Part shown: positions 6,101 through 64,000 of the stretch, piece after piece | How positions within the stretch are numbered: the first letter of the stretch is position 1 | How the letters are laid out: each line of letters opens with the position of its first letter | Assembly: GCA_022925895.1 (NCBI GenBank) | Contig: JAKSYS010000222.1 | Span: forward strand, 1 to 64,000 | DNA length: 64,000 nt | Direction of reading: 5' to 3' | Source: Fragilaria crotonensis | Taxonomy: Eukaryota > Bacillariophyta > Fragilariophyceae > Fragilariales > Fragilariaceae | The notes under the pieces: model-generated | Told to the model about the DNA's origin: nothing | What the model saw: only the letters and a program-made list of their open reading frames with translations | Database searches by the model: none | Made by a program: the position numbers and the translations under genes

Positions 6101-8665
6101 ACTAAGTGAAGGACTTGCACTTGGCTTGAGGCTCTCACTTGGCGGAGCACTAAGAGAAGGACTAGCACTTGGAGTGAAGGCCGCTTCACACAAGGGCCAA
6201 CTGACGGTGACTTTGACGTCGGCATCGCCATCATATCCATAAACATAAACCTGATAGGCGTTGCTGGTTTCATTGTTGAATACTAAAAGCTCGTTTCCGG
6301 GTACTGAGGTATTACTTCCCGAAAACGTGATCGAGTCACCACGCCATGTAAATGTCTCCGGATCAGATGGTAAAGACACAACATAGTCGCCCGATGTAAG
6401 ATACAGATTCACATCGACGTCGCTGGTGGCTGTGGTCAGCTCTACTTCCACACCTGACAAGCCGGGTCGAATATGACCAACCAGGATAAAATCTCCATTT
6501 TGAATTCGTTTCTCGAAGCTACTACTTCCATCGCAGAATGCGCTTGGTTGAGAACTTGGAGACGCACTTGTGCTTGGCTTAATGCTCTGGCTTGGTTGAG
6601 CCGAAGAACTTGGCTTTGCACTAGGCGAAATGCTCTCGCTCGGTGTAGAACTTGGCGTAGCACTAGAACTCGGAGCCGAGCTCGTTTGACACCCGGGCCA
6701 AGTAATGGTGACTGTGACGTCACCTTCATCGTACCATCCATAAACATAAACCTGATAGGTATTGTTGGTTACATCATTGAATATAACGAACTCTTCTCCT
6801 GTGGGGCCACCAAAGTATTCCGGATACACTCCAGAATACGTGATCGAGTCACCATTCCATGTTTTGGTCTGCTCACCGTATCCATCGTATTGTTCACCTC
6901 TAAATACGCCGACTCCAGCTTTAACGACCCAGGTGCCATTCGATCGGAGATTTAGATCAATATCCGCATCCATAGTGCTAGTAGCAGTGGTCATAAGTAT
7001 CTCCACACCTAATAAGCCGGCTCGAATTTCCGCTACCAGGGATAACTGTCTAAGTCCAACTCGTCTATCGAAGCTACCACTTCCATCGCAGAAACTGCTT
7101 GGTTGAGCAGTTGGCGCCGCACTCGGAGCCTTTGTCGGAGAGGCGGTGGGAGAGTCGGTGGGAACCGTCGTGGGAGAGGCAGTGGGAGCCGTCGTGGGAG
7201 AGGCGGTGGGATCCGTAGCGGGAGAGGCAGTGGGAGCCGTCGTGGGAAAGCCTGTGGGCGCCGTCGTGGGAAAGCCTGTGGGAGCCGTCGTGGGAGAGGC
7301 AGTGGGAGAGGCAGTGGGAGAGTCGGTGGGAGAGTCGGTGGGAGAGGCGGTGGGAGAGGCGGTGGGAGAGGCGGTGGGAGAGGCGGTGGGAGAGGCGGTG
7401 GGAGAGTCGGTGGGAGAGTCGGTGGGAGAGGCGGTGGGAGAGGCGGTGGGAGAGGCGGTGGGAGAGGCGGTGGGAGAGGCGGTGGGAGAGGCGGTGGGAG
7501 AGGCGGTGGGAGAGGCGGTGGGAGAGGCGGTGGAGAGGCGGTGGAGAGTCGGTGGGAGAGGCGGTGAGAGGCGGTGGGAGAGGCGGTGGGAGAGGCGGTG
7601 GGAGAGGCGGTGGGAGAGGCGGTGGAGAGAGGCGTGGAGAGGCGGTGGGAGAGTCGGTGGGAGAGGCGGTGGGAGGCGGTGGGAGAGGCGGTGGAGAGGC
7701 GGGGGAGAGGCGGTGGGAGAGGCGGTGGGAGAGGCGGTGGGAGAGTCGGTGGGAGAGTCGGTGGGAGAGGCGGTGGGAGAGTCGGTGGGAGAGGCGGTGG
7801 GAGAGGCGGTGGGAGAGTCGGTGGGAGAGTCGGTGGGAGAGTCGGTGGGAGAGGCGGTGGGAGAGGCGGTGGGAGAGGCGGTGGGAGAGTCGGTGGGAGA
7901 GGCGGTGGGAGAGGCGGTGGGAGAGGCGGTGGGAGAGGCGGTGGGAGAGGCGGTGGGAGAGGCGGTGGGAGCCGTCGTGGGAAAGCCTGTGGGAGCCGTC
8001 GTGGGAGAGGCAGTGGGAGAGCCGGTGGGAGAGTCGGTGGGAACCGTCGTGGGAAAGCCTGTGGGAGCCGTCGTGGGAGAGGCAGTCGGAGAGGCAGTGG
8101 GAGAGGCAGTCGGAGAGGCAGTCGGAGAGGCAGTGAGAGAGGCAGCGGGAGAGGCAGTTGGAGAGGCAGTTGGAGAGGCAGTGGGAGTGGCAGTGGGAGT
8201 GGCAGTTGGAGAGGCAGTGAGAGAGGCAGCGGGAGAGGCAGTGGGAGAGGCAGTTGGAGGGGCAGTGGGAGTGGCAGTTGGAGAGGCAGTGAGAGAGGCA
8301 GCGGGAGAGGCAGTGGGAGAGGCAGTTGGAGGGGCAGTGGGAGAGGCAGTGAGAGAGGCAGTGGGAGAGCCGGTGGGAGAGGCAGTGGGAGAGCCGGTGG
8401 GAGAGCCGGGAGCCTTCGTGGGAGCCTTGGTCGGAGCCTTTGTCGGAGCCTTTGTCGGAGCCTTGGTCGGAGCCTTGGTCGGAGCCTTGGTCGGAGCCTT
8501 GGTCGGAGCCTTGGTCGGAGCCTTGGTCGGAGCCTTTGTCGCAGCCTTTTTCGGAGGCTTGGTAACACGGTTCTGATTTCTCATGAGGCGACGCTCTTGA
8601 GCCATTGACTGGCCAATCGACGAAGCAACAAGGATAACAAGAAGAACGTTAGCGGAGGGGATCAT
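3147..8665 (-). CDS. Secreted mosaic protein with PTxSPT stalk, six repeated Cys-bounded domains and C-terminal Hint (hedgehog-type) domain; one frameshift
   Basis: Starting at 8665, a signal peptide (residues 1-22, cleavage near SMA|Q) is followed by TKAP repeats (about 41-86) and a long PTASPT/PTDSPT stalk (to about 525). Six copies of a 110-130 residue domain follow, each starting FCDGxxSFxKRI and ending Trp-x-x-Cys, with the core VDVDLYL..., GDSITFSG and YQVYVYGYDGDADVKV. This resembles bacterial PPC (pre-peptidase C-terminal) beta-sandwich domains. Linkers are Pro/Ser repeats (PSxSxSPS). The C-terminal part (3147-3920) has a Hint domain: CFSGESEVVT with the splicing Cys, VGDRVLTGSG, and SPNHMVFV as the T/N-x-x-H block, then two hydrophobic segments (about 3190-3310). 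Hint domains self-cleave in hedgehog and intein proteins. The frame breaks near 4092, where a TTT run present in the sister domains is TT, so a sequencing error or recent mutation is likely. Cell-wall or matrix role is inferred. Confidence 0.75.
4080..7096 (-). repeat. Six tandem copies of a Cys-bounded PPC-like domain (about 520-560 bp period)
   Basis: Within the Hint mosaic gene, domain copies lie at about 4092-4420, 4620-4963, 5126-5485, 5640-5988, 6188-6535 and 6690-7096, separated by Pro/Ser linkers. Copies 2-6 share long identical DNA stretches, while the one nearest the stalk (6690-7096) is the most diverged. This points to stepwise internal duplication with recent homogenisation. Confidence 0.85.
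7120..8560 (-). repeat. Low-complexity stalk: TKAP and PTxSPT coding minisatellite
   Basis: An imperfect 6/12-base repeat (GTGGGAGAGGCG-like on the plus strand) fills about 1.3 kb, and an 18-base TTGGTCGGAGCC-like repeat covers 8400-8540. On the minus strand they encode PTASPT and APTK units. Between about 7510 and 7700 several units lack bases, so the minus frame briefly reads HRLSHRLPPPLPP before returning to SPTASPT. The long open frames on the plus strand here are a by-product of the repeat. Confidence 0.9.
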
Positions 8666-8837
8666 GGTTTTGTTATGATCACGAAATCAGTTAGTAATAA
8701 GTGGACCCCTCGAATGTTTCTGCGAAGGGGCGAATTTATAGGTTCGTCCCTTGGACAGTATCGATGTTAGGATTACGACGGCTTGAAGTAATGTTTAGGG
8801 GGGTTCGCTTCATGCGTATGCATTCGAACCATCGCTT

Positions 8838-9376: not shown

Positions 9377-9657
9377 CAATCCATGTTTCAACTTGTATCG
9401 GTAATCCAATTCGCTTCATGCGTATCAGTATGATTACTACATATTTTTCAACTTGTATCGGTTTCGGAATTGGCATTGCTTCAAGTATCAGGTGGTGCGG
9501 TTCAGCGAAGTCGCTTCATGCGTATCAGTATGTATCTTTCTATAAAGTCATACCTCGCTCATACATGTTGACACCAAGAACTCACAATCGGACTATAACA
9601 ATCTGAAATAGTTGTTGTTTGGATTGTTTGCTTTACTAAGCGTTAATTGAGGACAAG

Positions 9658-11352
9658 ATGAAGTTTGCATTCGCACCGTTGCTTGTGGTCGCCCTCTTGG
9701 GGCTCAAGACTGTCGTGCCAGTCCATGGTCAGCAGAGGCAGCCCTTCGACGACAGCCGAAAGCCCGTCCATAAAGCCTTCAACAAAATAGACGCCACCGG
9801 AGGATTTGAACAGGACAAGTACATCGTAGGATACAAGAACCAATTGGGGCTTGAAACGGTTAGGTCCGAATCCGGAGCCGTCCGCCTCAACTTACCATAC
9901 GTCAAGGCTGTCGCAGCAACAATGACCCGGAGCCAAGCCGAGGCCCTCAAACTTAACCCGAACATTGCGTATGTTGAGTACGACTACAAGCTCTATCCCA
10001 TCGGCCTTCGCGGTGGCGGTACTAACTCCGTCCCATCGTTGCCGCATCATAGGAGGCTCGCCGAGGTCAAACCATATGGCATTGGGATGGTCCAAGCTGA
10101 CCAGCTATCCTTCAATACCACGTCCCCTGTCAAAGTTTGCATTATCGACACTGGCTACAACTTTGGCCACGAAGACCTTCCCACAAGCGGTGTCAAGGGC
10201 TGGTCTGATGTTGGAGCAGGTATCTGGTCCAAAGATGGGTATGGCCATGGCACGCATGTCGCTGGGACTATCGCTGCTATCGGTAATAATGGTAAGGGCG
10301 TCATCGGCGTTAGTCCTGGCGTTAAGCTCCACATCGCGCGGGTGTTTGATGATGATGCTGGGTGGGCGTACTCGTCCGATCTTGTTGGAGCTCTGAATTC
10401 TTGCAGAGCTGCGGGTGCCAACATCGTCAGCATGAGCATTGGGAGGGGTGGTCCCCCAAGCATTACTGAAGCAAATGCCTTCGATGCTCTGAGCAAGGCG
10501 GGCATGCTCTCAGTTGCAGCCGCCGGGAATGACGGAGACTACTTCTACTCTTATCCCGCTTCGTACAGCTCCGTCGTTTCCGTTGCCGCCATTGACTCAA
10601 GCAAGACTGTCGCTTACTTTTCCCAGTATAACGATCAGGTGGATTTGGCGGCTCCGGGTGTCGATGTCCGCTCGACCGTGCCAATGGGCATGGGGTTGGC
10701 GGAAGCATCGTTAGTCGTTGGCGCGACAGGTTACACGGTCACGACAATCTTGGGCTCTGAGATCAGGACAGCCACCGGTCCTCTGTTCGTATGCAGCCTA
10801 GGAGACTGTGAAGGTGCTTCCGGCAAAGTTTGCCTCATCAAGCGTGAGGATAGTTATTTGGATTCGAAGGTCGACGAATGCGCGTTTTGGGATGGCATTG
10901 CTGTCATCATCTACAATAATCAAGCCGGTGAATTTGTTGGTGAACTTTATTACTACGCCAGTATCCCTGTTGTCAGCACGTCCGACACAGATGGCGCAGC
11001 ACTGTTGAATATGGCGGGCACATCAGCCACTATTTCTTTTTCACCGAGTAATTATGACAGCTACAGTGGCACTTCCATGGCGACGCCACACGTGTCTGGT
11101 GTGGCGGCTCTGGTCTGGAGCCGCTACCCTGCCTGCACCAAAGACAACATCCTTAATGCCCTTTTCGTCACTGCGATGGACCTGGGTACAAAAGGGAGGG
11201 ACGACTTTTATGGTCACGGCCTCGTCCAAGCCAAGGCGGCCTCTGACTTCTTGTCAAAGGGCTGCTGTACTGCAAGAGGTGGACCATGTAGGGTTGGCTT
11301 AAACTGCTGCAGTGGTACCTGCCAAGGAGGAAACAAGCCGACTTGCAAGTAG
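9658..11352 (+). CDS. Secreted subtilisin-family serine protease
   Basis: A 564-residue S8 peptidase. Order: signal peptide (1-24, ending VHG), I9-type prodomain (about 50-112, DKYIVGYK to NPNIAYVEYD), then the catalytic domain with Asp164 in IIDTGY, His197 in GHGTHVAGT, the oxyanion-hole Asn in AAAGND and Ser473 in GTSMATPHVSG. A protease-associated (PA)-like insert of about 100 residues lies between the oxyanion-hole region and the serine (about 345-450). The C-terminus is a small Cys-rich module (CC...C...CC...C...C, eight Cys). All catalytic residues are present, so it should be an active extracellular or vacuolar protease made as a zymogen. Start at 9658 is the ATG in front of the signal peptide. 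The upstream region is shared with the Hint mosaic gene on the other strand. Confidence 0.93.
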   Translation: MKFAFAPLLVVALLGLKTVVPVHGQQRQPFDDSRKPVHKAFNKIDATGGFEQDKYIVGYKNQLGLETVRSESGAVRLNLPYVKAVAATMTRSQAEALKLNPNIAYVEYDYKLYPIGLRGGGTNSVPSLPHHRRLAEVKPYGIGMVQADQLSFNTTSPVKVCIIDTGYNFGHEDLPTSGVKGWSDVGAGIWSKDGYGHGTHVAGTIAAIGNNGKGVIGVSPGVKLHIARVFDDDAGWAYSSDLVGALNSCRAAGANIVSMSIGRGGPPSITEANAFDALSKAGMLSVAAAGNDGDYFYSYPASYSSVVSVAAIDSSKTVAYFSQYNDQVDLAAPGVDVRSTVPMGMGLAEASLVVGATGYTVTTILGSEIRTATGPLFVCSLGDCEGASGKVCLIKREDSYLDSKVDECAFWDGIAVIIYNNQAGEFVGELYYYASIPVVSTSDTDGAALLNMAGTSATISFSPSNYDSYSGTSMATPHVSGVAALVWSRYPACTKDNILNALFVTAMDLGTKGRDDFYGHGLVQAKAASDFLSKGCCTARGGPCRVGLNCCSGTCQGGNKPTCK

Positions 11353-19412: not shown

Positions 19413-20651
19413 TCAATCTCTTTGCGGTGTGATTGGCATTTCTCCAAAGGGGTATCGGCTCCAGTTCTGACCACTAATAATTAGGGCTCGATCATAATGT
19501 CCATTATTGATGAAAGGGTTCGGGAATCGCTTTCTCCAAGCAACGACACAAGCACCCCTGGCCAACGACGAGGCCGTGCGTCCATAATGATTTCGAGCAT
19601 GGAAATCCACCTTCTCTTCATTCAACAACACACGTACGACTTCCAAACGGTCCCTCATGCTTGCCACCATTAGGGGTGTGAAACCATGATTATCTTTGGC
19701 ATTGACTACAGCAACATCGACGACTGTATCGTGTTTCAGGAACTCGCAAACAACATCCGAATGTCCTTCTTCGCACGCCCAGGAAAAGGCTGCGCGACCC
19801 TCATTACAAGACTCATTCACATTGACCTTTTTGGGATGTTGCAACAAGACACGAACAACTCCCACATGCCCATTCTTACTGGCCATGATGAGGGCTGTGT
19901 ACCCATCATGACAACGGAGGTTCGCATCAATATTCGGGTGTTTCAACAACACCCGAACCACATCCCAATGGGCCTTGATGCTTGCCACAATGAGGGCGGT
20001 GTAACCATCATGCTTGTCTTGGATATTAACATCCACAATTACGTGCGTATCATCATCATCATCAACATCTGCAGCAGCAGCTTTCGACCACAAACATGAC
20101 GACAACAGTTCGTTTACAACCTCCAAATGGCCTAGAAGGCATGCCACCATTAGAGGTGTGACACGACTACTATCGGTACGGTTCACATCCAGTGTCTTGT
20201 CTTTTAATAATTCACGCACGATCTGTACATGACCACCCTGGCACGCTTGGAACAGGGCCGCAGTAGAAGGTGTTGTTCTGGTGTTGCCGTGATTGTTGAT
20301 GACACCATCGACAGGATTAACATTGATATCCTTCACATGATCAAGATGATTGCTGCTGTAGTTGTTGGATTGTAACGGAAACTCATAAGGCTCATCCACA
20401 TTATCATCCGTAGAAAATTGATTCAACATTCGGTTGTCATTGTTATCGCTATTGTCGTCCGTTATGATGATCCACTCATCATCATTGACGGTAGAATGGG
20501 CACTCTCGTACTCGTTAACGTTGTTTTCTTCGATTTCTGAGAAATCTGTATCAAAGTTGTCTTCATCATCAAAGTTATTATTGCTATTGAGCTCCAGTGA
20601 GCTGGACAATCCCAGTCGCAGTGGCTTGGTAGATTGTATGTTTTCGGACAT
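19413..20651 (-). CDS. Ankyrin-repeat protein with acidic N-terminus
   Basis: Start chosen at the ATG at 20651 (MSENIQSTKP); the frame stays open upstream but only to a non-ATG codon. About 412 residues. Residues 20-80 are Asn/Asp/Glu-rich and contain DDEWIIIT, which has the form of an Atg8-interacting (LIR) motif. Six ankyrin repeats follow (TALIVASIKAHWDVVRVLLKH, TALIMASKNGHVGVVRVLLQH and others). An acidic loop (DVDDDDD) extends repeat 2. No signal peptide. Sequence is clearly different from the 77-1906 ankyrin gene, so it is not part of that duplication. Confidence 0.85.
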   Translation of the reverse strand: MSENIQSTKPLRLGLSSSLELNSNNNFDDEDNFDTDFSEIEENNVNEYESAHSTVNDDEWIIITDDNSDNNDNRMLNQFSTDDNVDEPYEFPLQSNNYSSNHLDHVKDINVNPVDGVINNHGNTRTTPSTAALFQACQGGHVQIVRELLKDKTLDVNRTDSSRVTPLMVACLLGHLEVVNELLSSCLWSKAAAADVDDDDDTHVIVDVNIQDKHDGYTALIVASIKAHWDVVRVLLKHPNIDANLRCHDGYTALIMASKNGHVGVVRVLLQHPKKVNVNESCNEGRAAFSWACEEGHSDVVCEFLKHDTVVDVAVVNAKDNHGFTPLMVASMRDRLEVVRVLLNEEKVDFHARNHYGRTASSLARGACVVAWRKRFPNPFINNGHYDRALIISGQNWSRYPFGEMPITPQRD

Positions 20652-20839
20652 GGTCAACAGACGTGATCTTATGTGATATGGTAGCAGAAGCAGCAGCTTA
20701 GAATCGACCAAGGAAGCAGCTTCAGTGGTAAATAAACAAGCTACTTGGAGTGCAGAATTAGGATGTGTGTCATATGCGACACCAGGAGTTGTATCTTTTA
20801 CTTCCGGTAGAATTTGGGGGTTCGCTGTAAGGTGGGGAG

Positions 20840-21445
20840 TATCGTTGTGTTTGTTTAATTGCTGTTTAAAACACCCTGTTTTAAACAGCTGTTTAAAACA
20901 ACTTTTTTTTTTCCAAAAAACAATTTGTTTAATTGAAATCTAGGTTAGGGTTAAGGTTTTACGGTTATGATACGGTTTTTTCATCGACAAGTCTCATTGC
21001 TCATCACATAACTATACTGTTTACAGGTTGAAACAGCATCAAAATGCATAACATCAGTTAAGTGATGCATGTGAGACAATTCAATTCATTTTGATTCAAG
21101 AATGGTGAGATGAAAGGATGTTATCAGTGGACACTTAGGGGATCCATACCATTCAGTTGGTGGGATACCTGCATGCAACAAGGCAGAGTATTGTCAGGCA
21201 TAAGTGCAATTATAAGTTCATGCTGATTAGTCCTTAGGGCTCCTTTCTATCTTGGTTATCCTTGTTGTCTTGTTCTCAAGCCAATGAACCGTATTGATTG
21301 GTGGTCTACTCCGAGTACTGGACTACTTGGAGTACTGTAGTACTTACTACTGTGAACTGTTGCTGTTTTAAACAAAGTTGTTTTAAACAGTTTTAAACTG
21401 TTTAAAACAAATTCAAAATCTGAATTTGTTTAAAACACAACGATA
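20840..21445. mobile_element. Non-autonomous DNA transposon (MITE), 606 bp, 8-bp target duplication
   Basis: The ends are inverted repeats: TATCGTTGTGTTT at 20840-20852 and AAACACAACGATA at 21433-21445. They are flanked on both sides by the same 8 bases, GTGGGGAG (20832-20839 and 21446-21453), a target-site duplication. Just inside each end are clusters of GTTTAAAAC-type palindromes (20860-20910, 21363-21440). No transposase is encoded. An 8-bp duplication fits hAT-like elements, though these ends are not typical of hAT. Confidence 0.75.
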
Positions 21446-29484: not shown

Positions 29485-30006
29485 GGTGGAGACGATGGAA
29501 ATATAACAGTGTATGTATATATGCAGAAGGGATTCCCTCTGCTACCAGAGACCTGCGATCTCTAAAATTTGGTCATTCCACGAGCCACTCCTTTTAGTCA
29601 CGGTGCGATTATGCTGTGAGCTGGTGTCACCCTGTATTTAACAAAGATGTGTTTTTTCTCCATGAATTTCCAATAAATGATTGAAGTACTCTGAAGAGAA
29701 AAGAGCTTAAGCACATATTCCGGAAACTTCCTCTACTGTACTTGTCTACTATCGTACTACATTGCAGAACTACACGTTCCGTATTCAGGACGTTGTGCAT
29801 ATCGATTCATTGTTTAAGCTCGTATGAATCATTTTCTAAACGTGAAACTTCATTCGCCGTTTCGCAGAATTTTCATTATTTCGCCGCACCTATCCGATTT
29901 CGCGATACACGATACTACAGTACTTTAGCACAATACAGTACATGACTGATCTTGCTTTGACCGTCATATAAATGTTGTGCAAGACCTGCGTAGCTCACGA
30001 TGAAAT
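29485..30006. other. Intergenic region between divergent genes
   Basis: Upstream of both the kinesin (minus) and an ankyrin gene (plus). GTAC/TACTGTAC words around 29730-29760 and 29910-29945. No gene seen. Confidence 0.4.
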
Positions 30007-30897
30007 ATGGTGCACGTCAATGCTGTCGACACTACAGATTTGTCCTACTCAGAACTGATTCAAGCAGTTGAATGGAATGATTTGGCTGAAGTTCGCGAGT
30101 TGCTGGATCACGACAAGGTGGTGTTGTCCGATGCCGATACGAGTCAAGCCCTCATACGGGCAATTACGTTGGACCGTGTGGCCATGTTTCGAGAAGTATT
30201 GACACATGACAATGTGAATGTCAATGCCATTGATCATGATGGCTTCACACCTTTCAATTGGGCAAGTCTCATGGGTCACGTGAACTATGTTCGCGAGATG
30301 GCAAATCACGACAGGATGAATGTCAATGCTCTAGACAAATTTGGCTTTACAGCACTTATCTGGGCAAGTTTCGAGGGCCTTTGTGATGTTGTTCGTGAAT
30401 TACTAAATCATGAGAAAGTCGACATTAATGCCATCGACGAGGATTGCGCCACTGCCCTCATGCGTGCAAGCGAAGAAGGCCATTTGAATGTGGTTCGGGA
30501 GCTGTTGAAAGAGCCCACGATATGTTTAAATGCAAAAGATAATGCTGGTCAGACTGCATGTTACATGGCGAGCCTCAACGGCCATTGGAACATTGTTTGG
30601 GAGTTGTTACATCATGACGAAGTGGATGTGAATGTTCAAGGATCACTTGGATGCACAGCACTCATGTGGGCGATCCTTCAAGGTAATTTGGAAGCGGTGT
30701 GTAAGTTGTTGAAACACGACAAGGTGGATACAAGCGTAAAGAATAAAGCTGGCTCGACAGCTCTTGATCTTGCTCGCAATTGTGATTTGGTCGCCATCGT
30801 GGAATGCCTAGAGGAGCACGCCAAGGTTTGTTTACGACGCCGTGAGGCGGAAGAGAGCAGCAAACGAAATGAAGCCAGGTGGAAGGAAGACGTTTAA
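30007..30897 (+). CDS. Ankyrin-repeat protein
   Basis: A 296-residue protein starting at the ATG at 30007. About seven ankyrin repeats cover residues 15-270 (TPFNWASLMGHVNYVREMANH, TALMRASEEGHLNVVRELLK, TALMWAILQGNLEAVCKLLKH), ending in AGSTALDLARNC and a charged tail (RRREAEESSKRNEARWKEDV). No signal peptide. The 3' half, from about position 30577 on, is repeated as a fragment at 33322-33475, which marks the left breakpoint of a tandem duplication. The family is the same as the ankyrin genes at 77 and 39056 (shared AGSTALDIARNC end). Confidence 0.88.
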   Translation: MVHVNAVDTTDLSYSELIQAVEWNDLAEVRELLDHDKVVLSDADTSQALIRAITLDRVAMFREVLTHDNVNVNAIDHDGFTPFNWASLMGHVNYVREMANHDRMNVNALDKFGFTALIWASFEGLCDVVRELLNHEKVDINAIDEDCATALMRASEEGHLNVVRELLKEPTICLNAKDNAGQTACYMASLNGHWNIVWELLHHDEVDVNVQGSLGCTALMWAILQGNLEAVCKLLKHDKVDTSVKNKAGSTALDLARNCDLVAIVECLEEHAKVCLRRREAEESSKRNEARWKEDV

Positions 30898-31431
30898 TCC
30901 AATCTACTCCGTACTCAGCAATTGAAGTGTATCTGTGGACCTCAGATGCGAGGATCTGTAGCCGATAGTGAGGGAATTGTGCACTGCAGAACCAAGAGCA
31001 GTGATGTATAACAGTATTACCAATCGCCAAGTAGCACACGCGTTTGGCCTGGATTTTCGACATCTAATGGCCTACATCGAAAGGCCTAGCAACGTAACAC
31101 CCGGGAAGCCAATAGGAATAGGCTTCTATTAGCAATAGAGAACTTAACAGCTAAGCGTGCCTGATACTATGTGATGCGAGGCCTGAGTTAAGTGACGACT
31201 GATACTATGTGATCCGAGGCCTGGCTTGAGTGACGCCTGTTGCTTTGTGATATGCGACCTGAGTTGAGTGACGTTGTCAACAACATTCACAAGGAAGATG
31301 TACTCTACCGGTAGGTCTAGTGCGTTGACAAGAACATTCACAAGCAACGGGTTAGTTGCCAAAAAATGCTGGACAAACTTTGTGGCCGACCTCTCCTCAC
31401 AACTTCAGTTTCTTGACAGCTTTACCCTAAG
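30898..31431. other. Intergenic part of the duplicated block
   Basis: The stretch around 30970-31070 (AACCAAGAGCAG..., CCAATCGCCAAGTA..., GTTTGGCCTGGATTTTCGAC) has a diverged copy at about 33610-33710. No gene seen before the SnoaL-like gene. Confidence 0.5.
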
Positions 31432-32530
31432 ATGCTTTCCTCCGTCGCTCGCTCCCTTCCTCGTGTCGTAGTTCGTCGAGAACTACAATCGTTGTCGAAG
31501 GTAAGATCTACTCATAAGATGTAGGAAACTTGGGAAAAATGTACGATGGTTCTTCAAGTTGTTGAAACAAGTAGTTCCTCACCAACCTTGACTTCATCAA
31601 CCTAAGTTCGCTGGAGAGTCGTTTCATTCTTCTGCGATTCCACCAACTCAAGTAACTGCATCAAGTCAAGGGACGTTCACTGATTGGACCAAGAACAAGA
31701 ACGCTTCCTCGAATGTTCACATTCGTTCATTCTTTTCAGGTGCAAAGGAATCCAGTGTGCCTTCTATTTCTGAAACCGAAGTGAAAGGCCTTTTCGGTCT
31801 TTGGAATGACGCCCTCGCAACGCTCAATCCAGAGACTGTTGCCAAACGTTACGCCACGAAAGCAATCCTCCTTCCAACTGTTTCTGACACTCCGCGCACA
31901 AGCTTCGATTTGATTCACTCGTACTTTGTGGATTTCTTGAAGAAGAAGCCGCAAGGCGTCATTCTCGAAAGCAACGTGCTCCAAGGCGATGATTGGGCTC
32001 TGGATGCTGGCATATACGAGTTCACCCTCGGAGCGACCGGTGATACGGTCAAGGCCCGTTACACGTACATGTACACGTATGAAGACAACGAATGGAAAAT
32101 CTCGCACCATCATTCGTCTGTCATGCCGGAAGGCATCCCTTCGGCCCAGCCCATTACAGACGAAGAAGTGAAGGGACTATTCCACCTCTGGAATGATGCG
32201 TTGGCTACTTTGGATTCAGACGTTGTTGCGAAGCGATACTCGAAGACTCCTGTGCTTCTTCCGACAGTTTCTGACATTCCTCGTACGGACTACAACCTCA
32301 TCAAATCCTATTTCGACGATTTCTTGAAGAAAAAGCCGCAGGGTGAAATCCTCGAGAGCCATGTTCTTCGTGGTTTCAATTGGGCTCAGGATGCAGGTAT
32401 CTATGAATTTACTCTTGGTGCAACTGGGGACAAAGTGAAGGCTCGTTACACCTTTGTTTATGTCTTTGAAGATGGAGAATGGAAGATTTCTCATCACCAT
32501 TCTTCTGTCATGCCAGAAGCCAAAAGCTAA
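31432..32530 (+). CDS. Mitochondrial-type protein with two SnoaL-like (CaMKII-association/DUF4440) domains, spliced
   Basis: Exon 1 (31432-31500) encodes a basic, Ser/Arg-rich presequence-like start (MLSSVARSLPRVVVRRELQS) and ends at AAG|GTAAGA. Exon 2 ends at 32530 and encodes two near-identical domains of about 125 residues (LFGLWNDALATLNPETVAKRY and LFHLWNDALATLDSDVVAKRY; each ends WKISHHHSSVMPE). This is the cone-shaped SnoaL/ketosteroid-isomerase fold as in the CaMKII association domain; such stand-alone proteins have no settled function. The best acceptor (TTTTCAG at 31739) would put exon 2 out of frame with exon 1; an acceptor at 31747 (CAAAG) restores the frame, or a small middle exon exists. 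A decayed copy lies at 33690-34200. Confidence 0.75.
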
Positions 32531-32877
32531 TAAGATATCCCACGGACGATTGGGTTCGCGGAGCGTGACATGTTTTCGTAGTATTCGAACTCCCTACAGT
32601 ATTGTACAGGAGCACTCAGTGTATTGCCGAATCCCAGTAAATGAGTATCTAATTTCCTCATTTTACTAAAGAATTGATGGATTTCCTATGCTTGCTGAAT
32701 GTATGTGCAAATGACGTTACAGAAAACGGTGCTAGTACCCTGGTACTGTACAATGTACTGGGTACAGCCGAATGGTGGCAGGTGGCAGCATAAGTTCACC
32801 AGCAAATGCTCCAGCACGAAGCGGAAAAGGGCGGCAATCGGCAATACAGAAGATTATATCTTCGAAAGAAACTTGTG
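32531..32877. other. Intergenic region
   Basis: Contains TACAGTATTGTAC and GTACTGTACAATGTACTGGGTAC words (32590-32770). The last 50 bases resemble the leader in front of the related gene at 35025 (GGGCGGCAAT shared). Confidence 0.4.
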
Positions 32878-32886
32878 ATGATCCCC

Positions 32887-33387
32887 ATGAGATTGCTACT
32901 TCTGGCTTCATTGGCTGTATCAGCCCAATCTCAATATCCATCATGCTCAATATGTGGCGATGGAAAGACAGTAGGAGCACCGGATGTCATCTTTTCTTTC
33001 TCACAACAACCTGACGTTCCTTGTGGTCTTTTGGAAATTGCTGGTAATCTTGGTCAGATTACGCAAGAACAATGCGCCTTCCTACCAGGACTTGTTGCCG
33101 TTGATTGTTCTTGCCAAGAAGCCTCTGACCCTCCCGCCGTGGCGTCACCAACCGCAGCACCAATTGCACCTGCGACAGCCAAACCAATACCAGATGCTAG
33201 CAGCGCTCCGGTATCAGATGCTACCGATGCTCCAGTATCTTATCCCACCGGTGCCCCCGTGCCAGATCCTACAAAGCCTCCGGCATCGAATGCCAAAACT
33301 CAAGTTCCACTGACGGATGTCTCAATGGCCATTGGGATATTGTTTGGGAGTTATGTAATCGTGACGACAAGGTGGATACAGATTTAG
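32887..33387 (+). CDS. Truncated secreted Cys-rich protein fused out of frame to ankyrin DNA (duplication junction)
   Basis: The start MRLLLLASLAVSAQSQ is a signal peptide, followed by the Cys-rich module CSICGDGKTVGAPDVIFSF...CGLLE...QCAFLP...CSC and a short Pro/Asp/Ala-rich stretch (ATAKPIPDAS). This is a close copy of the first 150 residues of the protein at 35025. At about 33320, after VPLTDV, the sequence changes to ankyrin-gene DNA read in the wrong frame, giving the tail MAIGILFGSYVIVTTRW and a stop. So it is the 5' piece of a duplicated gene cut at the duplication breakpoint. It may still yield a small secreted protein. Confidence 0.75.
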   Translation: MRLLLLASLAVSAQSQYPSCSICGDGKTVGAPDVIFSFSQQPDVPCGLLEIAGNLGQITQEQCAFLPGLVAVDCSCQEASDPPAVASPTAAPIAPATAKPIPDASSAPVSDATDAPVSYPTGAPVPDPTKPPASNAKTQVPLTDVSMAIGILFGSYVIVTTRWIQI

Positions 33388-33475
33388 AGAATCAAGCTGG
33401 CTTGAGAGCACCGTATGTAGCTCGCAATTGTGAAATGTTCGATAAGGGGAAATGTCTGGACGGAAACGCCTAGGT
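33322..33475 (+). pseudogene. Ankyrin gene fragment at duplication junction
   Basis: In frame, this reads NGHWDIVWELCNRDDKVDT... and continues to an AGLRAPYVARNCEMFD-like end, matching the last third of the ankyrin gene at 30007-30897 (NGHWNIVWELLHHDEVDV...). It has deletions and stops. It directly follows the truncated Cys-rich gene. Confidence 0.75.
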
Positions 33476-33689
33476 GTGTCTGCAACAGCCGCGGGGACGA
33501 ACAGAGTACTCGTACCAGACGAAAAGGATCTGCTCACCAGCGAAAGTGGAAAAGTGGATAAAGGAGCCTCGGGTGCAAGGATATAAGTGCCCGATACTGT
33601 AGTTAAGTGGAGGAGAACGCTGCAACCTGCGAAACCAAGAACTTCAATGCATAATTGTTTTACCAATAGGCAAGTAAAGCACGGCTTTG

Positions 33690-34200
33690 GCCTCGATTAT
33701 GGACATCAACACGCTACGGTTTGATTCACTGGTTCTTATTGGAGGAATTGAAGAAGAACAAGCATCATCATTGAAAGCAACTCGTTTTCCAAAGCGATAT
33801 GTACGAAGTGCTCACTCGGAGCCACCGGTACTAAGGACGAGTGCTGTAACATGTTCTCCAGTACGCTCGTAACGACAGCGACTATGGAAAATCATTCTTC
33901 TGATATGCAGGGAGACATCCCCTATGCCCAGGCTATTACAGACGACTACGTGAAAGGACAACTGGAAGGAAGCAAAGACTCCAGTGCTTCTTCCTACTGC
34001 ATGTGATATTCCTCGTATACTAATGTTGACCTATCATCAAATCATGGTTCGACGATTTCTGGAAGAAAAAGTCGCAGGGTGCTATTCTTGAGAGCCATGT
34101 TCTTTCGTGGCTTCACAATTGGGCCCAGGATGCAGGCATCTATGAATTTATTCCTGGCGCAACTGGGGACAGGGTTGAAGGCTCGTAAAAATGCCTTTCT
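33690..34200 (+). pseudogene. Decayed copy of the SnoaL-like domain gene
   Basis: Broken frames match the intact gene at 31432-32530: DNA for DDFLKKKSQGAILESHVL-like, then WAQDAGIYEF-like and GATGD-like stretches, plus QGDIPYAQAITDD. Frameshifts, stops and deletions are scattered through it and the presequence exon is unrecognisable. Its order relative to the ankyrin fragment and the Cys-rich gene is the same as in the first block. Confidence 0.75.
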
Positions 34201-35024
34201 TTACTCCTTTGAAGATATCGGGAGAGTAGATGATTTGTGGCGATGCCAGATTCTGTTTTCGCTGGTGGTAAGAATTTCCCATAGGCCTCAGAGAATTCAG
34301 TTCTCTACAGTTCCAATTCGCACGGGCGTGCTTGCAAGATTGACGTGTCTGCGCACCTTCCCAGGCGTGTCTCATACGATATGCCTGCGTGACCGTAAGT
34401 GGTATAATACCATAGTACCAAAAAAATTGGATTGCAGATTGCAGTTTACACTACCTGGTAGTATACTACAAGTACTACACTTCAGGTGATGTATCGGACT
34501 ATGATGTATGCGGATGCTCGTTCTTGTTATGTCACAGATACACATCATGTGTATAGTGTACCTCTTGTTTTCGCTCGTATGACTCTAGGCGGGAGGGTCG
34601 GTGGTTCAAACCTCGATCCTTTGTTTTGAATTCAAGTCTTGTCAACTCGTTATGCACATAGGGGAAGGCCGCTCAGTGGGAAGGAATTTGGAGGGGTTAC
34701 TTCGAATCTTTAGCATACTCTGTGCTGGAATAGAATTTGAATTCAAGAATGAAATTATACATACATTATAAAATACATAAGAGGCGATCGTGCAATTCTC
34801 CTATAGTGACACGATCGGAAACATGTGTGGTACACGTCATGTATAGTGGAGCAATGGACTGCTTAATGTATGATGTATTCCCACTACACACAAAGGGTGC
34901 GCTTACTCGGAAGTTCGCGGAAAAAAGCTTCCTTCAATTACATTGCGGCACAAGCTAAACAAAAACGCAAGCATAAAGCGGAAAGGGCGGCAATATTACA
35001 AGCAATCTTTGAGAGAATCTTGTG
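34201..35024. other. Intergenic region
   Basis: No gene seen. The sequence just before the next gene (GGGCGGCAATATTACAAGC) parallels that before 32887. A GGTGGTTCAAACC stretch near 34600 looks a little like a tRNA T-arm but no tRNA could be folded. Confidence 0.4.
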
Positions 35025-37703
35025 ATGCCTCCCATGAGATTGCTACTTCTTGCTTCGTTGGCTGTATCAGTCCAATCTCAATCTCAACCTTGCTCAGTAT
35101 GCGGTGATGGAAAGACGGTAGGAGCGCCGGATGCCATCTTTTCTTTCCCACAACAACCTGACGTCCCATGTGGTCTTTTGGAACTCGCTGGTAGTCTTGG
35201 TCAGATTCCACAAGAACAATGTGGCTTCCTCCCACGTCTTGTTGCCGAGGACTGCTCTTGCCAAGGACCCTCTGAGCCTCCTGCCGTGGCAACTCCAACC
35301 GCAGCGCCAATTCCCCCTCCGACTGCTAAACCAGTACCAGATCCGACATCACCACCAGTTCCAGATCCTACCAGCGCTCCTGTTCCTGATCCTACCGATG
35401 CCCCCGTGCCAGATCCTACCAGCGCTCCTGTTCCAGATCCAACCGAGCCTCCTGCATCGAGTGCCGGAACTCCAGTTCCTCTGACGGATGCTCCTGTTGT
35501 ACCTCTGTCGGACGCTCCAGTGACATCGGCTCCTATACCAGTACCGACTACGTTTCCTTCCCAAACTGCGCCAATTTCAGCTCCACCACAGGAGCCATTT
35601 ACCGAGGCTCCTGTATCGACTGATGCTCCCGTAATTTTGGAATCTCCGGTATTAGAACCAAGTTTGGGTGACCTTCCAACGATCGCGCCAATGATTGTGA
35701 TTGAGGAACCTCCGACATCTGCTCCTCTGCTTGTGATTGAGGAACCTCCGACAGTGGTCCCAGTTCAAGTTGTTACACCAACTTTTGCACCAGCAGCTGT
35801 CACGATTCCCACCAAACCATCGCCAGTGTACAGTGGTGATGATGACGATGGTGACGACGATGCTGGTGACAAGCCAGCACCATCACCTGTCAAGACACCT
35901 ACCAAACATTCTCCAGTGTCCAGTGGTGATGATGACGATGATGGTGAGGTACCTGCACCAGCACCAGTTCCAAGCAAACCAGCTCCAACTAAAGAAGATG
36001 CGGGTAAGGGCAAGGGTGTTGTAGACAAAAAGCCCAAGGGCAAAAAGGATAAAAAGGCAAAGAAAGAAGACGACAAGAAGGGTCCGAAGGTAAAGAAGGG
36101 AGATGATGACGACGACGATGGCAAAGGAAAGGGCAAGGGCTCGGACGGAAAGAAGGGAGATGATGATGACGATGATGGCAAAGGAAAGGGCAAGGGCTCC
36201 GATGGAAAGAAGGGAGATGATGACGATGATGGCAAAGGAAAGGGCAAGGGTTCTGATGGAAAGAAGGGAGATGATGACGATGATGGCAAAGGAAAGGGCA
36301 AGGGCTCGGATGGAAAGAAGGGAGATGATGACGACGATGATGGCAAAGGAAAGGGCAAGGGCTCCGATGGAAAGAAGGGAGATGATGATGACGACGATGG
36401 CAAAGGTAAGGGCAAGGGCTCGGATGGAAAGAAGGGAGATGATGATGACGACGATGCAGGTAAGGGCAAGGGCTCCGATGGAAAGAAGGGAGATGATGAC
36501 GACGATGATGGCAAAGGAAAGGGCAAGGGCTCTGATGGAAAGAAGGGAGATGATGATGACGACGATGATGGCAAAGGAAAGGGCAAGGGCTCGGACGGAA
36601 AGAAGGGAGATGACGACGACAACGATGGAAAAGGAAAGGGCAAGGGATCCGATGGAAAGAAGGGAGATGATGACGACGATGATGGCAAAGGAAAGGGCAA
36701 GGGCTCGGACGGAAAGAAGGGAGATGATGACGACGATGATGGCAAAGGAAAGGGCAAGGGCTCGGACGGAAAGAAGGGAGATGACGACGACGACGATGGA
36801 AAAGGAAAGGGCAAGGGATCCGATGGAAAGAAGGGAGATGATGACGACGATGATGGCAAAGGAAAGGGCAAGGGCTCGGACGGAAAGAAGGGAGATGATG
36901 ACGACGATGATGGCAAAGGAAAGGGCAAGGGCTCTGATGGAAAGAAGGGTGGTGATGATGACGATGATGGCAAAGGAAAGGGCAAGGGCTCCGATGGAAA
37001 GAAGGGAGATGATGACGACGATGATGGCAAAGGAAAGGGCAAGGGCTCGGACGGAAAGAAGGGAGATGATGACGACGATGATGGCAAAGGAAAGGGCAAG
37101 GGCTCTGATGGAAAGAAGGGTGGTGATGATGACGATGATGGCAAAGGAAAGGGCAAGGGCTCTGATGGAAAGAAGGGTGGTGATGATGACGATGATGGCA
37201 AAGGAAAGGGCAAGGGCTCTGATGGAAAGAAGGGTGGTGATGATGACGATGATGGCAAAGGAAAGGGCAAGGGCTCTGATGGAAAGAAGGGTGGTGATGA
37301 TGATGATGATGGCAAAGGTAAGGGCAAGGGCTCTGATGGAAAGAAGGGTGGTGATGATGACGATGATGGCAAAGGAAAGGGCAAGGGCTCTGATGGAAAG
37401 AAGGGAGATGATGACGACGATGATGGCAAAGGAAAGGGCAAGGGCTCGGACGGAAAGAAGGGTGGTGATGACGACGATGATGGAAAAGGAAAGGGCAAGG
37501 GCTCCGATGGAAAGAAGGGTGGTGATGATGACGATGATTCCGGCAAGGGCAAGGGCTCAGCCGAAGGAAAGGGCGTCGGCCCTAAAGGAAAGAAGGGCGA
37601 TGATGACGATGGCGACGAAGGAAAGGGCAAAGGAAAGGGCTCTGAAACAAACATTGGCGATGACGATGATGACGATGACTACAAATTAAAAACCGGCGAG
37701 TAA
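35025..37703 (+). CDS. Secreted Cys-rich protein with long Lys-Gly/Asp polyampholyte repeat
   Basis: About 892 residues. MPPMRLLLLASLAVSVQSQ is a signal peptide (the frame is also open from a GTG just upstream). Then a Cys-rich module (CSVCGDGKTVGAPDAIFSF...VPCGLLE...QCGFLP...CSC, about residues 25-85), a Pro-rich region of PDPTSAPV units (about 95-260), Pro/Asp linkers, a Lys-rich block (GKKDKKAKKEDDKKG), and about 25 repeats of KGKGKGSDGKKGDDDDDDG (about 365-850). Alternating blocks of clustered Lys and clustered Asp make a strong polyampholyte without aromatic or hydrophobic residues. The same layout of charge is known from diatom biosilica proteins (silaffins, cingulins, silacidins), but no homology is claimed. 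A cell-wall role is inferred. A truncated copy lies at 32887. Confidence 0.85.
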   Translation: MPPMRLLLLASLAVSVQSQSQPCSVCGDGKTVGAPDAIFSFPQQPDVPCGLLELAGSLGQIPQEQCGFLPRLVAEDCSCQGPSEPPAVATPTAAPIPPPTAKPVPDPTSPPVPDPTSAPVPDPTDAPVPDPTSAPVPDPTEPPASSAGTPVPLTDAPVVPLSDAPVTSAPIPVPTTFPSQTAPISAPPQEPFTEAPVSTDAPVILESPVLEPSLGDLPTIAPMIVIEEPPTSAPLLVIEEPPTVVPVQVVTPTFAPAAVTIPTKPSPVYSGDDDDGDDDAGDKPAPSPVKTPTKHSPVSSGDDDDDGEVPAPAPVPSKPAPTKEDAGKGKGVVDKKPKGKKDKKAKKEDDKKGPKVKKGDDDDDDGKGKGKGSDGKKGDDDDDDGKGKGKGSDGKKGDDDDDGKGKGKGSDGKKGDDDDDGKGKGKGSDGKKGDDDDDDGKGKGKGSDGKKGDDDDDDGKGKGKGSDGKKGDDDDDDAGKGKGSDGKKGDDDDDDGKGKGKGSDGKKGDDDDDDDGKGKGKGSDGKKGDDDDNDGKGKGKGSDGKKGDDDDDDGKGKGKGSDGKKGDDDDDDGKGKGKGSDGKKGDDDDDDGKGKGKGSDGKKGDDDDDDGKGKGKGSDGKKGDDDDDDGKGKGKGSDGKKGGDDDDDGKGKGKGSDGKKGDDDDDDGKGKGKGSDGKKGDDDDDDGKGKGKGSDGKKGGDDDDDGKGKGKGSDGKKGGDDDDDGKGKGKGSDGKKGGDDDDDGKGKGKGSDGKKGGDDDDDGKGKGKGSDGKKGGDDDDDGKGKGKGSDGKKGDDDDDDGKGKGKGSDGKKGGDDDDDGKGKGKGSDGKKGGDDDDDSGKGKGSAEGKGVGPKGKKGDDDDGDEGKGKGKGSETNIGDDDDDDDYKLKTGE
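36090..37560 (+). repeat. Coding tandem repeat, about 57-60 bp unit, about 25 copies
   Basis: The unit GATGGCAAAGGAAAGGGCAA... GGCTCxGATGGAAAGAAGGG, then 5-7 GAT/GAC codons, encodes the Lys-Gly/Asp repeat. Codon choice in the Asp runs varies between GAT and GAC and some neighbouring units are identical as blocks (for example around 36600-36900), which shows copying of multi-unit blocks. Copies from about 36950 on often carry GGTGGT (Gly-Gly) before the Asp run. Confidence 0.95.
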
Positions 37704-62789: not shown

Positions 62790-64000
62790 TCAAGCGGCGG
62801 ACATGGCGGTGATGGAGTGTGGAACCGGGGACTTGGTCAACGAATCTGCGGAGTTCACGACGCCAGGGATATGGGAGAGGACAATCTCGTTGGCAGCTTT
62901 CCATTCTTGGAGGGCAAAGTGTTGAATGTCGATATGGCGAGCACGCGGCGTTGGACGACTCGCGTTTACCATCAGGATGGCCGCAGCGTTATCCTCGAAC
63001 AACGTAGTCGGACCAATCTGAGGGTACCCAAGTTCCGAAAGGATCGACCGAAGGTACTTGGCAATCTTGGCGGCGTGGACAGCAGCGAGGAGTTCGGCTT
63101 CGGTGGAGCTGGTGGAAACCGTTGACTGAATCTTGGACTTGTAAGCCAAAGGTCCGCCGCAGAACATAAACACAAGCCCAGTGATCGAGCGGCGCGTGAC
63201 AAGGTCCGTTGCATGCGCGGCGTCGACATATCCAGCTAGCTCGACCGAGGAATGTGGTTGCGGGAAGTCAGGAAGAGTCGGATCGGGAGTGAGAATCTGA
63301 AAATCACCATGTGGAAGCGTCGATAAAAGCACGGATCGCCAGTAGAGTAAACCCCAATTTTTCGTCATGCGTAGGTACCGAGCGACACGACGTAACGCGT
63401 TGTAGTGCACTTTCGCCGGATGATCGGAGAATCGCGCGAGCGTCGTGACCGCGTACCCGATGTCCGGGCGAGCAACCACATAGGCATAAATTAATGCGCC
63501 CAAGACACTTCGATACGAAAACCCAGCAGCCGTTTCCAGATCACAATATTCGGGAGTTCCGTCACGAGGCGCAGTGGTGTAGTCGTCGAACATTTGTTGC
63601 GTCGTTGAAGCGGCGAGAGGCTCAATGGGCTTTGCATCCGTCTCGTGTGATCCGGAGGACAACCAGCCGTAGTGCGCGAGCAGTTTGTCGATGTAGGATT
63701 CGCATGTGATTTTGATATATCGGTCATATATGCTGTTCGACGTCGACGCCATTGAAAGAATCCAAAACGCCTTCGTCACGGAGGTCGATACCGTCTTCCG
63801 AGCAGATGACGCGCACAAGGTCTCTGATCGCGTCGGGGTCGACGCAACCGATGGCCAAATCGTCGACTTGACGACAGATGAGCATGCGATGACCCTTGTA
63901 TTCACCTTGGTAGAGGCTTCGCTCATGGGTTGTCGAAGTGAAACCATGACGAGCGATGACGGAATTTACAAACTTTTCCCAGAGCGCCCCAGATTCCGGA
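62790..64000 (-). mobile_element. Copia (CoDi-type) reverse transcriptase C-terminus and RNase H, partial
   Basis: The minus strand encodes the RNase H part: AGYVDAAHATDLVTRRSITG, QSTVSTSSTEAELLAAVHAA, PTPRARHIDIQHFALQEW and IPGVVNSADSLTKSPVPHS, all Copia signatures. Before it is the RT connection region (GALIYAYVVARPDIGYAVTTL). The RT core with RQVDDLAIG (catalytic VDD) lies at about 63740-64000 in another frame, so one frameshift (near 63735) breaks the polyprotein. The element runs off the right edge. Confidence 0.92.

Follow-up and report, generated by a model that had tools for sequence, protein, structure and literature searches.

What does a diatom do with a protein whose C-terminal part alternates between lysine-glycine blocks and runs of aspartate? 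Such a protein is encoded at 35025-37703 (+) in a 64,000-nucleotide stretch of Fragilaria crotonensis contig JAKSYS010000222.1 (the window), and a preliminary description had put it forward as a candidate biosilica or matrix protein. We confirmed that the gene is real and protein-coding and that the protein has a secreted-type architecture, with the signal peptide judged by eye. From its sequence, we lean towards a block polyampholyte (a chain that carries both charges) belonging to the wall or the surface coat, which would be secreted, docked by a cysteine module, and self-associating by charge. Ca2+ would probably contribute to the self-association of the tail, and the protein may possibly take part in forming silica as well.

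The gene and its charge-block tail

The open reading frame (ORF; P0001) is complete and encodes 892 amino acids with no internal stop. The protein begins with MPPMRLLLLASLAVSVQS, a hydrophobic, signal-peptide-like start (residues 1-18, 35025-35078, with an approximate cleavage site) that has a short core and lies outside the top four 19-residue hydropathy windows of the protein. There follow a six-cysteine module (residues 23-79, 35091-35261) and a linker (residues 80-333, 35262-36023) in which proline makes up 26.5% of the residues, with valine, alanine and threonine next. The linker is enriched in XP[TS]X tetrapeptides (21 seen, versus 12.4 +/- 2.7 in 1000 shuffles) and has two aspartate-rich islands near its end. 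A basic lysine cluster (residues 334-360, 36024-36104) precedes the tandem array (36092-37538), and the protein closes with a diverged end rich in lysine, glycine and aspartate (37539-37700), which has no hydrophobic tail by translation and hydropathy scan. The basic cluster contains 8 of the 9 KXXK motifs of the protein, all of which fall within residues 335-355 or at residue 854. Overall, the protein is 17.8% lysine, 0.2% asparagine and 1.3% glutamine, with just 2 tyrosines and no tryptophan among its 892 residues. We found no transmembrane stretch in it (the best 19-residue hydropathy is 1.41), and a Pfam search of the protein at E up to 1 gave no family. We also found no allelic copy of the gene: the first 1036 bases, used as the query, gave only a truncated duplicate.

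Tandem Repeats Finder reported 25.5 copies of a 57-bp unit with 93% matches, and we counted 25 SDGKKG anchors in units of the form GKGKGKGSDGKKGDDDDDD and variants of it, which agrees with the earlier estimate of about 25 repeats. The alternation of lysine-glycine and poly-aspartate blocks is also borne out, but it is not strict: there are small length changes, and of the 24 spacings between anchors, 20 are of 19 amino acids, three are of 18, and one is of 20. The other frames of the array are also free of stops, so the openness of the frame is no evidence of coding. However, between 20 internal 57-bp units, synonymous differences (pS = 0.299) far exceed replacements (pN = 0.013; pN/pS = 0.04), which implies that the protein sequence has been kept and not merely a DNA repeat. 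If the diverged last unit is included (21 units, with 12 distinct DNA forms and 4 protein forms), then pS is 0.320 and pN is 0.048. The ratio pS/pN is lower in all five other frames, the next best being a reverse frame with 0.209 and 0.061 (again with 21 units). Among the arrays that we describe below, coding constraint was computed for the window array alone.

The tail, from residue 334 onwards, is mostly aspartate (33%), glycine (31%), lysine (27%) and serine (5%), with no arginine. It contains 149 positive and 192 negative residues (fractions f+ = 0.27 and f- = 0.34, net charge -0.077 per residue), and this makes it a strong polyampholyte, with both charges in one chain as first described. 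The charges are segregated locally: delta over 5-residue blocks is 0.205, versus 0.092 +/- 0.012 in 50 shuffles (2.2-fold), and kappa is approximately 0.30. Such charge-block chains are expected to ion-pair both within and between chains.

Relatives of the module and the array in the genome

The cysteine-rich module noted in the preliminary description recurs across the genome. The cysteines of the window protein are at residues 23, 26, 49, 66, 77 and 79, so all six are inside the module. Using the N-terminal 98 amino acids as the query against the genome (62.1 Mb in 881 contigs), we obtained 51 matches at E <= 0.001, from 58 candidates. We read 32 loci and two window ORFs for the module (nine of the 51 matches are outside this set) and found it in 31 of the 32 loci, the exception being a tail piece (L042), for a total of 42 copies in 33 ORFs. 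The module spans about 57 residues and has the pattern CxxCGxG...C..L...G.........C...CxC, which the window protein fits; one cysteine is missing in a few of the 42 copies. In an alignment of 14 copies, chosen from the 42, ten columns (C1, C4, G5, G7, C27, L30, G34, C44, C55 and C57) are invariant in 14 of 14. The window module is 81% identical to that of the truncated duplicate and 51% identical to that of C324/C355.

The tails attached to the module vary widely and include PT or RPT repeats, lysine-rich ends, KG repeats and hydrophobic spans. Tails were read to the next stop, and introns and frame breaks shorten some of them; as read, 8 of the 33 module ORFs have tails with at least 10% lysine, and three (the window protein, C11 and C683) combine this with at least 20% aspartate plus glutamate. 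In a tree of the 42 module copies, 20 of the 38 inner branches are open, as there are too few columns, and the window pair is firm only together. Because the tree is largely open, we claim no clade for the members with ampholyte tails. Pfam searches at E up to 0.1 gave no family for C19, C383 or C355, and for C43 gave only PT and DUF7471, both below their cut-offs. We found no relatives of the module in viral contigs and phages. A search of prokaryote genomes gave one match (L047, 15 of 57 residues), which we took as chance. Several members of one group of module loci (L038, L040 and L041 on G000:C285, along with L036, L043, L044 and L045) have extra cysteines, and some have hydrophobic spans; contig C285 holds five of the 51 matches.

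Positions 29-52 of the module profile weakly resemble plant-type leucine-rich repeats (LRRs), with BIR2 at E = 0.0034 and no stretch passing alone, and two At1g27190 chains also matched the profile (E = 0.042 and 0.062). The LRR-like matches in the PDB extend over 24 residues, and we dropped them as evidence. The module may hold a degenerate single LRR with cysteine caps, judging from this likeness.

Lysine-glycine/poly-aspartate arrays occur at five further loci (C19, C383, C290, C306, and C34 at 81.6 kb), and looser mixes of KG with DD or TP occur at C324/C355, C34 at 70 kb, and C11. We favor a wall or surface role for the window protein because similar repeats recur in the genome. Diatoms commonly have wall proteins of low complexity. 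Local charge segregation above that of shuffles was also found in C19, C383, C324 and C11, and not in the tail of L007. The array of C306 is nearly a copy of that of C34:81.6 kb. N-termini were read for three array loci (C19, C383 and C290), and they differ from that of the window protein: a hydrophobic start is followed by RXL (QRSL in C19; GRFL in C383; RRSL and PRDL in C290) and then by the array. The frame breaks in C383, C290 and C324/C355 are either assembly errors or real. C324 (L003) and C355 (L004) carry a near-identical gene with the cysteine module and KG repeats whose frame breaks differ; the pair may be uncollapsed haplotypes, recent duplicates or repeat assembly errors.

The serine codons of the arrays bear on their origin. 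In the window array, the serine of GKGKGS is encoded by TCN in 25 of 25 units, whereas in the matching units of C19, whose array is the closest to that of the window, it is encoded by AGY in 16 of 16 (and 62 of the 76 serine codons in the whole C19 tail are AGY). Because the passage between TCN and AGY needs replacement steps, the two arrays are probably not copies of each other, and these codons suggest that they were probably built independently. A charge layout that arose twice in this way would point to its having been selected. The arrays of C306 and C34 have one serine each, both TCG. The DNA of the window array is 67-72% alike to that of C19 and C383, which we did not count as homology, since equal composition and period suffice to produce it; this is no disproof of homology either. 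When the N-terminus of C383 was used as a query against the genome, only itself was found, so homology between C383 and C19 outside the repeats is unsupported.

Silica-related criteria and rival explanations

The genome is very probably that of a silicifying diatom because it encodes silicic-acid transporters: Pfam's Silic_transp has 19 matches, of which 18 are over the cut-off (best E = 4e-193), while 14 control genomes gave one match below the cut-off and zero above it. The RXL and PT-repeat features fit this assignment. Silicic-acid transporters are also reported from coccolithophores (PMC4742977). One 1456-aa frame (G000:C97:29749-33762) contains three transporter units and appears to be a fused triple transporter.

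Here and below, what we cite on known proteins is drawn from passages of the papers named. One published screen for silaffin-like proteins (SFLPs) requires a signal peptide together with KXXK repeats, X being S or G, that lie 1-6 residues apart; RXL was present in all ten new hits and pentalysine clusters in eight (PMC5501833). A pentalysine cluster is five non-consecutive lysines in 12-14 residues (PMC5501833; also defined in PMC9650480). In the window array (residues 361-845), K[SG]2K was seen 0 times, versus 4.9 in shuffles. RXL was not found in the protein outside the signal peptide, the sole instance being RLL at residue 5. The array has no strict pentalysine starts, as the full unit has five lysines in 11 residues with two of them adjacent; if adjacent lysines are skipped in a permissive count, the tail as a whole has 4 starts. 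Other arrays of the genome come closer to the screen. K[SG]2K clearly exceeds shuffles in C383 (34 versus 2.9), C290 (10 versus 1.7), C324 (14 versus 0.5) and C34:70 kb (8 versus 1.1), but not in C19 (6 versus 4.0), C306 (1 versus 1.5) or C34:81.6 kb (2 versus 1.3). C324 has eight strict pentalysine cluster starts. Among the eight arrays, C383 alone has K[SG]2K pairs 1-6 residues apart (six pairs), by a measure that omits overlapping KGGKGGK runs such as those of C324. The earlier statement that the protein does not match named silaffins thus holds as far as the published criteria go; our comparison was made through these criteria alone.

Like silaffins and SFLPs, the window protein is repetitive and rich in lysine, glycine and serine, and it would be secreted, zwitterionic in function and from a silicifying cell; RXL and KXXK also occur in some other proteins that the genome encodes with this style of tail. 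Unlike them, it lacks K[SG]2K in the array and RXL beyond the signal peptide, and it has six cysteines, whereas silaffins, cingulins and silacidins have one cysteine or none (PMC5525289). Furthermore, the anions of silaffins are phosphate, while those of the window protein are aspartates within the chain. Cingulins share its lysine clusters with glycine and serine spacers in a low-complexity secreted chain, but their KXXK regions alternate with Trp/Tyr-rich regions (PMC4557024), and the window protein has neither this alternation nor a K[SG]2K array. Silacidins are likewise repetitive and Asp-rich with serine present, being Asp/Glu/Ser-rich peptides from a repetitive precursor with RXL sites (PMC4557024), but the tail of the window protein is 27% lysine and has no RXL-bounded peptides. 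Pleuralins resemble it in their modular wall-type layout, with a cysteine module, a Pro-rich domain and a variable C-terminus. However, they have an N-terminal Pro-rich domain and then multiple 90-aa PSCD repeats (PMC4557024), while the window protein has one 57-residue module before its Pro-rich part. Frustulins are secreted proteins that are likewise acidic and contain cysteine, and the window protein too would be likely to bind Ca2+; they have multiple domains that are acidic and Cys-rich, each about 50 aa long (PMC4557024), and, by this description of the domains, the window protein differs in its single module and in the long aspartate runs outside it. Silicanins (SiMat7/Sin1) share a Cys-rich luminal part and are secreted diatom proteins, but they have RXL, an NQ-rich domain with 18 conserved cysteines, and a type 1 transmembrane helix (PMC5525289), none of which we found in the window protein beyond its signal peptide. 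Given these differences, we do not class it with the silaffins, cingulins, silacidins, pleuralins, frustulins or silicanins.

Two further comparisons rest on published descriptions. The Tyr-rich surface proteins AC3362 and AC714 of Amphora coffeaeformis are alike in being low-complexity, with lysine over arginine and Pro-rich modules; AC714 has a Lys/Gly-rich region, and AC3362, a Lys-rich and Pro-rich protein, is found in the cell wall and not in adhesive trails (PMC4220933). Unlike the window protein they are rich in tyrosine, and the passages cited describe no Lys-Gly/poly-Asp alternation in them (PMC4220933). XP[TS]X-type repeats, as enriched in the linker of the window protein, occur in silicon-responsive T. 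pseudonana proteins, for which the cited passages describe no Lys-Gly/Asp tail (PMC5501833). Among the matches listed for the open-licence literature, and in the passages of the cited papers, we found no cysteine module of this kind joined to a Lys-Gly/Asp charge-block repeat that recurs, and in that literature we found no KGKGKG in a diatom context.

Could the protein form silica directly? In this scenario, it would work in the silica deposition vesicle, where its lysine blocks, perhaps bearing polyamines, condense silica, and aspartate or phosphoserine serves as a built-in polyanion. We consider this unlikely, though quite conceivable. The silicifying genome speaks for it, as do the proteins with the same style of tail that match parts of the screen, through RXL in C290, C383 and C19 or a K[SG]2K excess in C383, C290 and C324. 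Silaffin-1A is itself zwitterionic through modification, and silica formation driven by polyamines has been described as a phase separation that a polyanion assists (PMC4557024). But these features stop short of the window protein, with its six cysteines, no K[SG]2K in the array where shuffles give 4.9, no strict pentalysine cluster there and no RXL past the signal peptide, and the arrays of C19, C306 and C34:81.6 kb also have no clear K[SG]2K excess. What stands of the original proposal is the secreted-type layout, the strong polyampholyte, the silicifying genome and the other proteins whose repeats are of this kind and which show silaffin-like features; the K[SG]2K, RXL and pentalysine criteria and the six cysteines give no support to a silica-forming role of the protein itself. 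Secretion into mucilage, an adhesive or other extracellular polymeric substances, in which the ampholyte would gel with sulphated polysaccharide and Ca2+, is unlikely as well. The layout fits this equally, being of the secreted type with a Pro/Thr linker and no membrane anchor, and the module is found on many kinds of low-complexity tail, of which some contain hydrophobic spans resembling membrane anchors by eye, as for surface-interaction proteins. On the other hand, adhesive-trail proteins of diatoms are described as containing vWD domains, often with GDPH (PMC7335047), and the window protein has no Pfam family.

It is quite improbable that the tail is simply a neutral expansion, made by slippage and unequal exchange, which is tolerated and has no selected function. 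The spacing of 18-20 amino acids would fit such a history, as would the 12 DNA forms among 21 units, the very different low-complexity tails attached to one module, and the fact that units three apart are the most alike (7 of 16 such pairs are identical). The pN/pS of 0.04 in the coding frame argues against it, and so does the matching charge layout at C19 with unrelated serine codons.

Several results weigh against our preferred reading of a wall or surface polyampholyte. Unequal exchange, by homogenising the units, may also have lowered pN in the array. The independent-origin argument is limited to the window-C19 pair, as C383 (17 of 18) and C290 (12 of 12) use TCN, with the serine elsewhere in the unit. 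Long-range charge patterning is equal to that of shuffles (sequence charge decoration 17.35, versus 16.97 +/- 2.63); because delta is above shuffles and this measure is not, short charge blocks are kept and large-scale separation is not. The signal peptide was judged by eye, and no N-glycosylation sequon was found in the protein. As for the module, a PDB search with the N-terminal sequence gave no match up to E = 10, a search with the module profile gave five weak matches (the best to a 24-residue LRR stretch at E = 0.0034), and the structure predicted from the two window copies was unusable (mean pLDDT 48.5).

If the protein does belong to the wall or surface coat, then the cysteine module would fold via disulphides and dock it either on the wall itself or on a partner, and the linker, which may be hydroxylated or O-glycosylated, would act as a stiff spacer. 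The tail would be disordered, with lysine blocks pairing with Asp5-6 blocks in their own chain or in a neighbouring one; Ca2+ and long-chain polyamines are likely extra cross-linkers, and the result would be a condensed gel layer. Phosphorylation of the single serine in each unit might serve as a switch towards a more acidic chain. The protein would then act like a silaffin and a silacidin in one chain, while belonging to neither.

Locus history, neighbours and implications

The truncated duplicate (32878-33387, +) has a signal-peptide-like start, the cysteine module and the start of the linker, with no ampholyte tail; similarity ends near 33319. Self-comparison of the window matches 32813-33319 to 34970-35490 at 78%, and 33321-33707 is matched by three pieces of 30574-31064. 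A neighbouring CaMKII_AD/SnoaL-like ORF with two domain stretches by Pfam (31592-32530, +) matches 33709-34236 (+) piecewise, the latter being a decayed copy, flanked by the truncated gene on one side and the full one on the other. These matches fit a single tandem duplication of a block consisting of the end of the upstream ORF (30004-30897), the CaMKII_AD gene and the first part of the ampholyte gene; the junction at about 33319/33321 would have cut the upstream ampholyte copy past the start of its linker, and the second CaMKII_AD copy would have decayed. Between the truncated duplicate and the full gene, the replacement rate dN is 0.116 and the synonymous rate dS is 0.486 (154 aligned columns), a ratio that cannot show whether the truncated copy is still constrained, because most of the constraint may fall on the full one.

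Elsewhere in the window, a 1550-aa frame at 4034-8686 (-) encodes another low-complexity protein, with a long 12-bp tandem array that Pfam scores above the cut-off as a PT repeat; its repeated domains have PPC-like Pfam matches, which are weak and below the cut-off. A stretch of the adjoining frame (3147-4112, -) resembles a Hedgehog-type Hint domain. At 9655-11352 (+) is a subtilase with a PA domain and a Cys-rich C-terminal end, where a Conotoxin match below the family cut-off probably reflects the cysteine pattern only. Ankyrin-like genes, recognized by eye, lie at 77-1906 (+), 19413-20939 (-) and 30004-30897 (+), and there is a 102-bp tandem array at 371-1302. The frame at 62790-63965 (-) resembles the end of a copia-type retroelement polyprotein.

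A bolder proposal goes further than a wall or surface polyampholyte, and as a whole we think it rather unlikely: a Lys-Gly/Asp "word" (KGKG..GKKG-D4-6) would have evolved repeatedly on unrelated secreted N-termini, and the window chain would self-coacervate, dock by its cysteine module and template wall assembly, uniting the polycation and polyanion of silica formation that silaffins, polyamines and silacidins supply separately. If this is true, then a silicifying cell can place the two charges of a wall coacervate within a single polypeptide and need not rely on polyamine modification and phosphorylation, and the shaping of wall matrices by charge pattern becomes directly testable through phase separation of the tail in vitro. 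Because screens for KXXK or RXL would both miss the window protein, the six-cysteine module, with its dozens of copies in the genome, would offer a handle on wall and surface proteins that such screens have missed.

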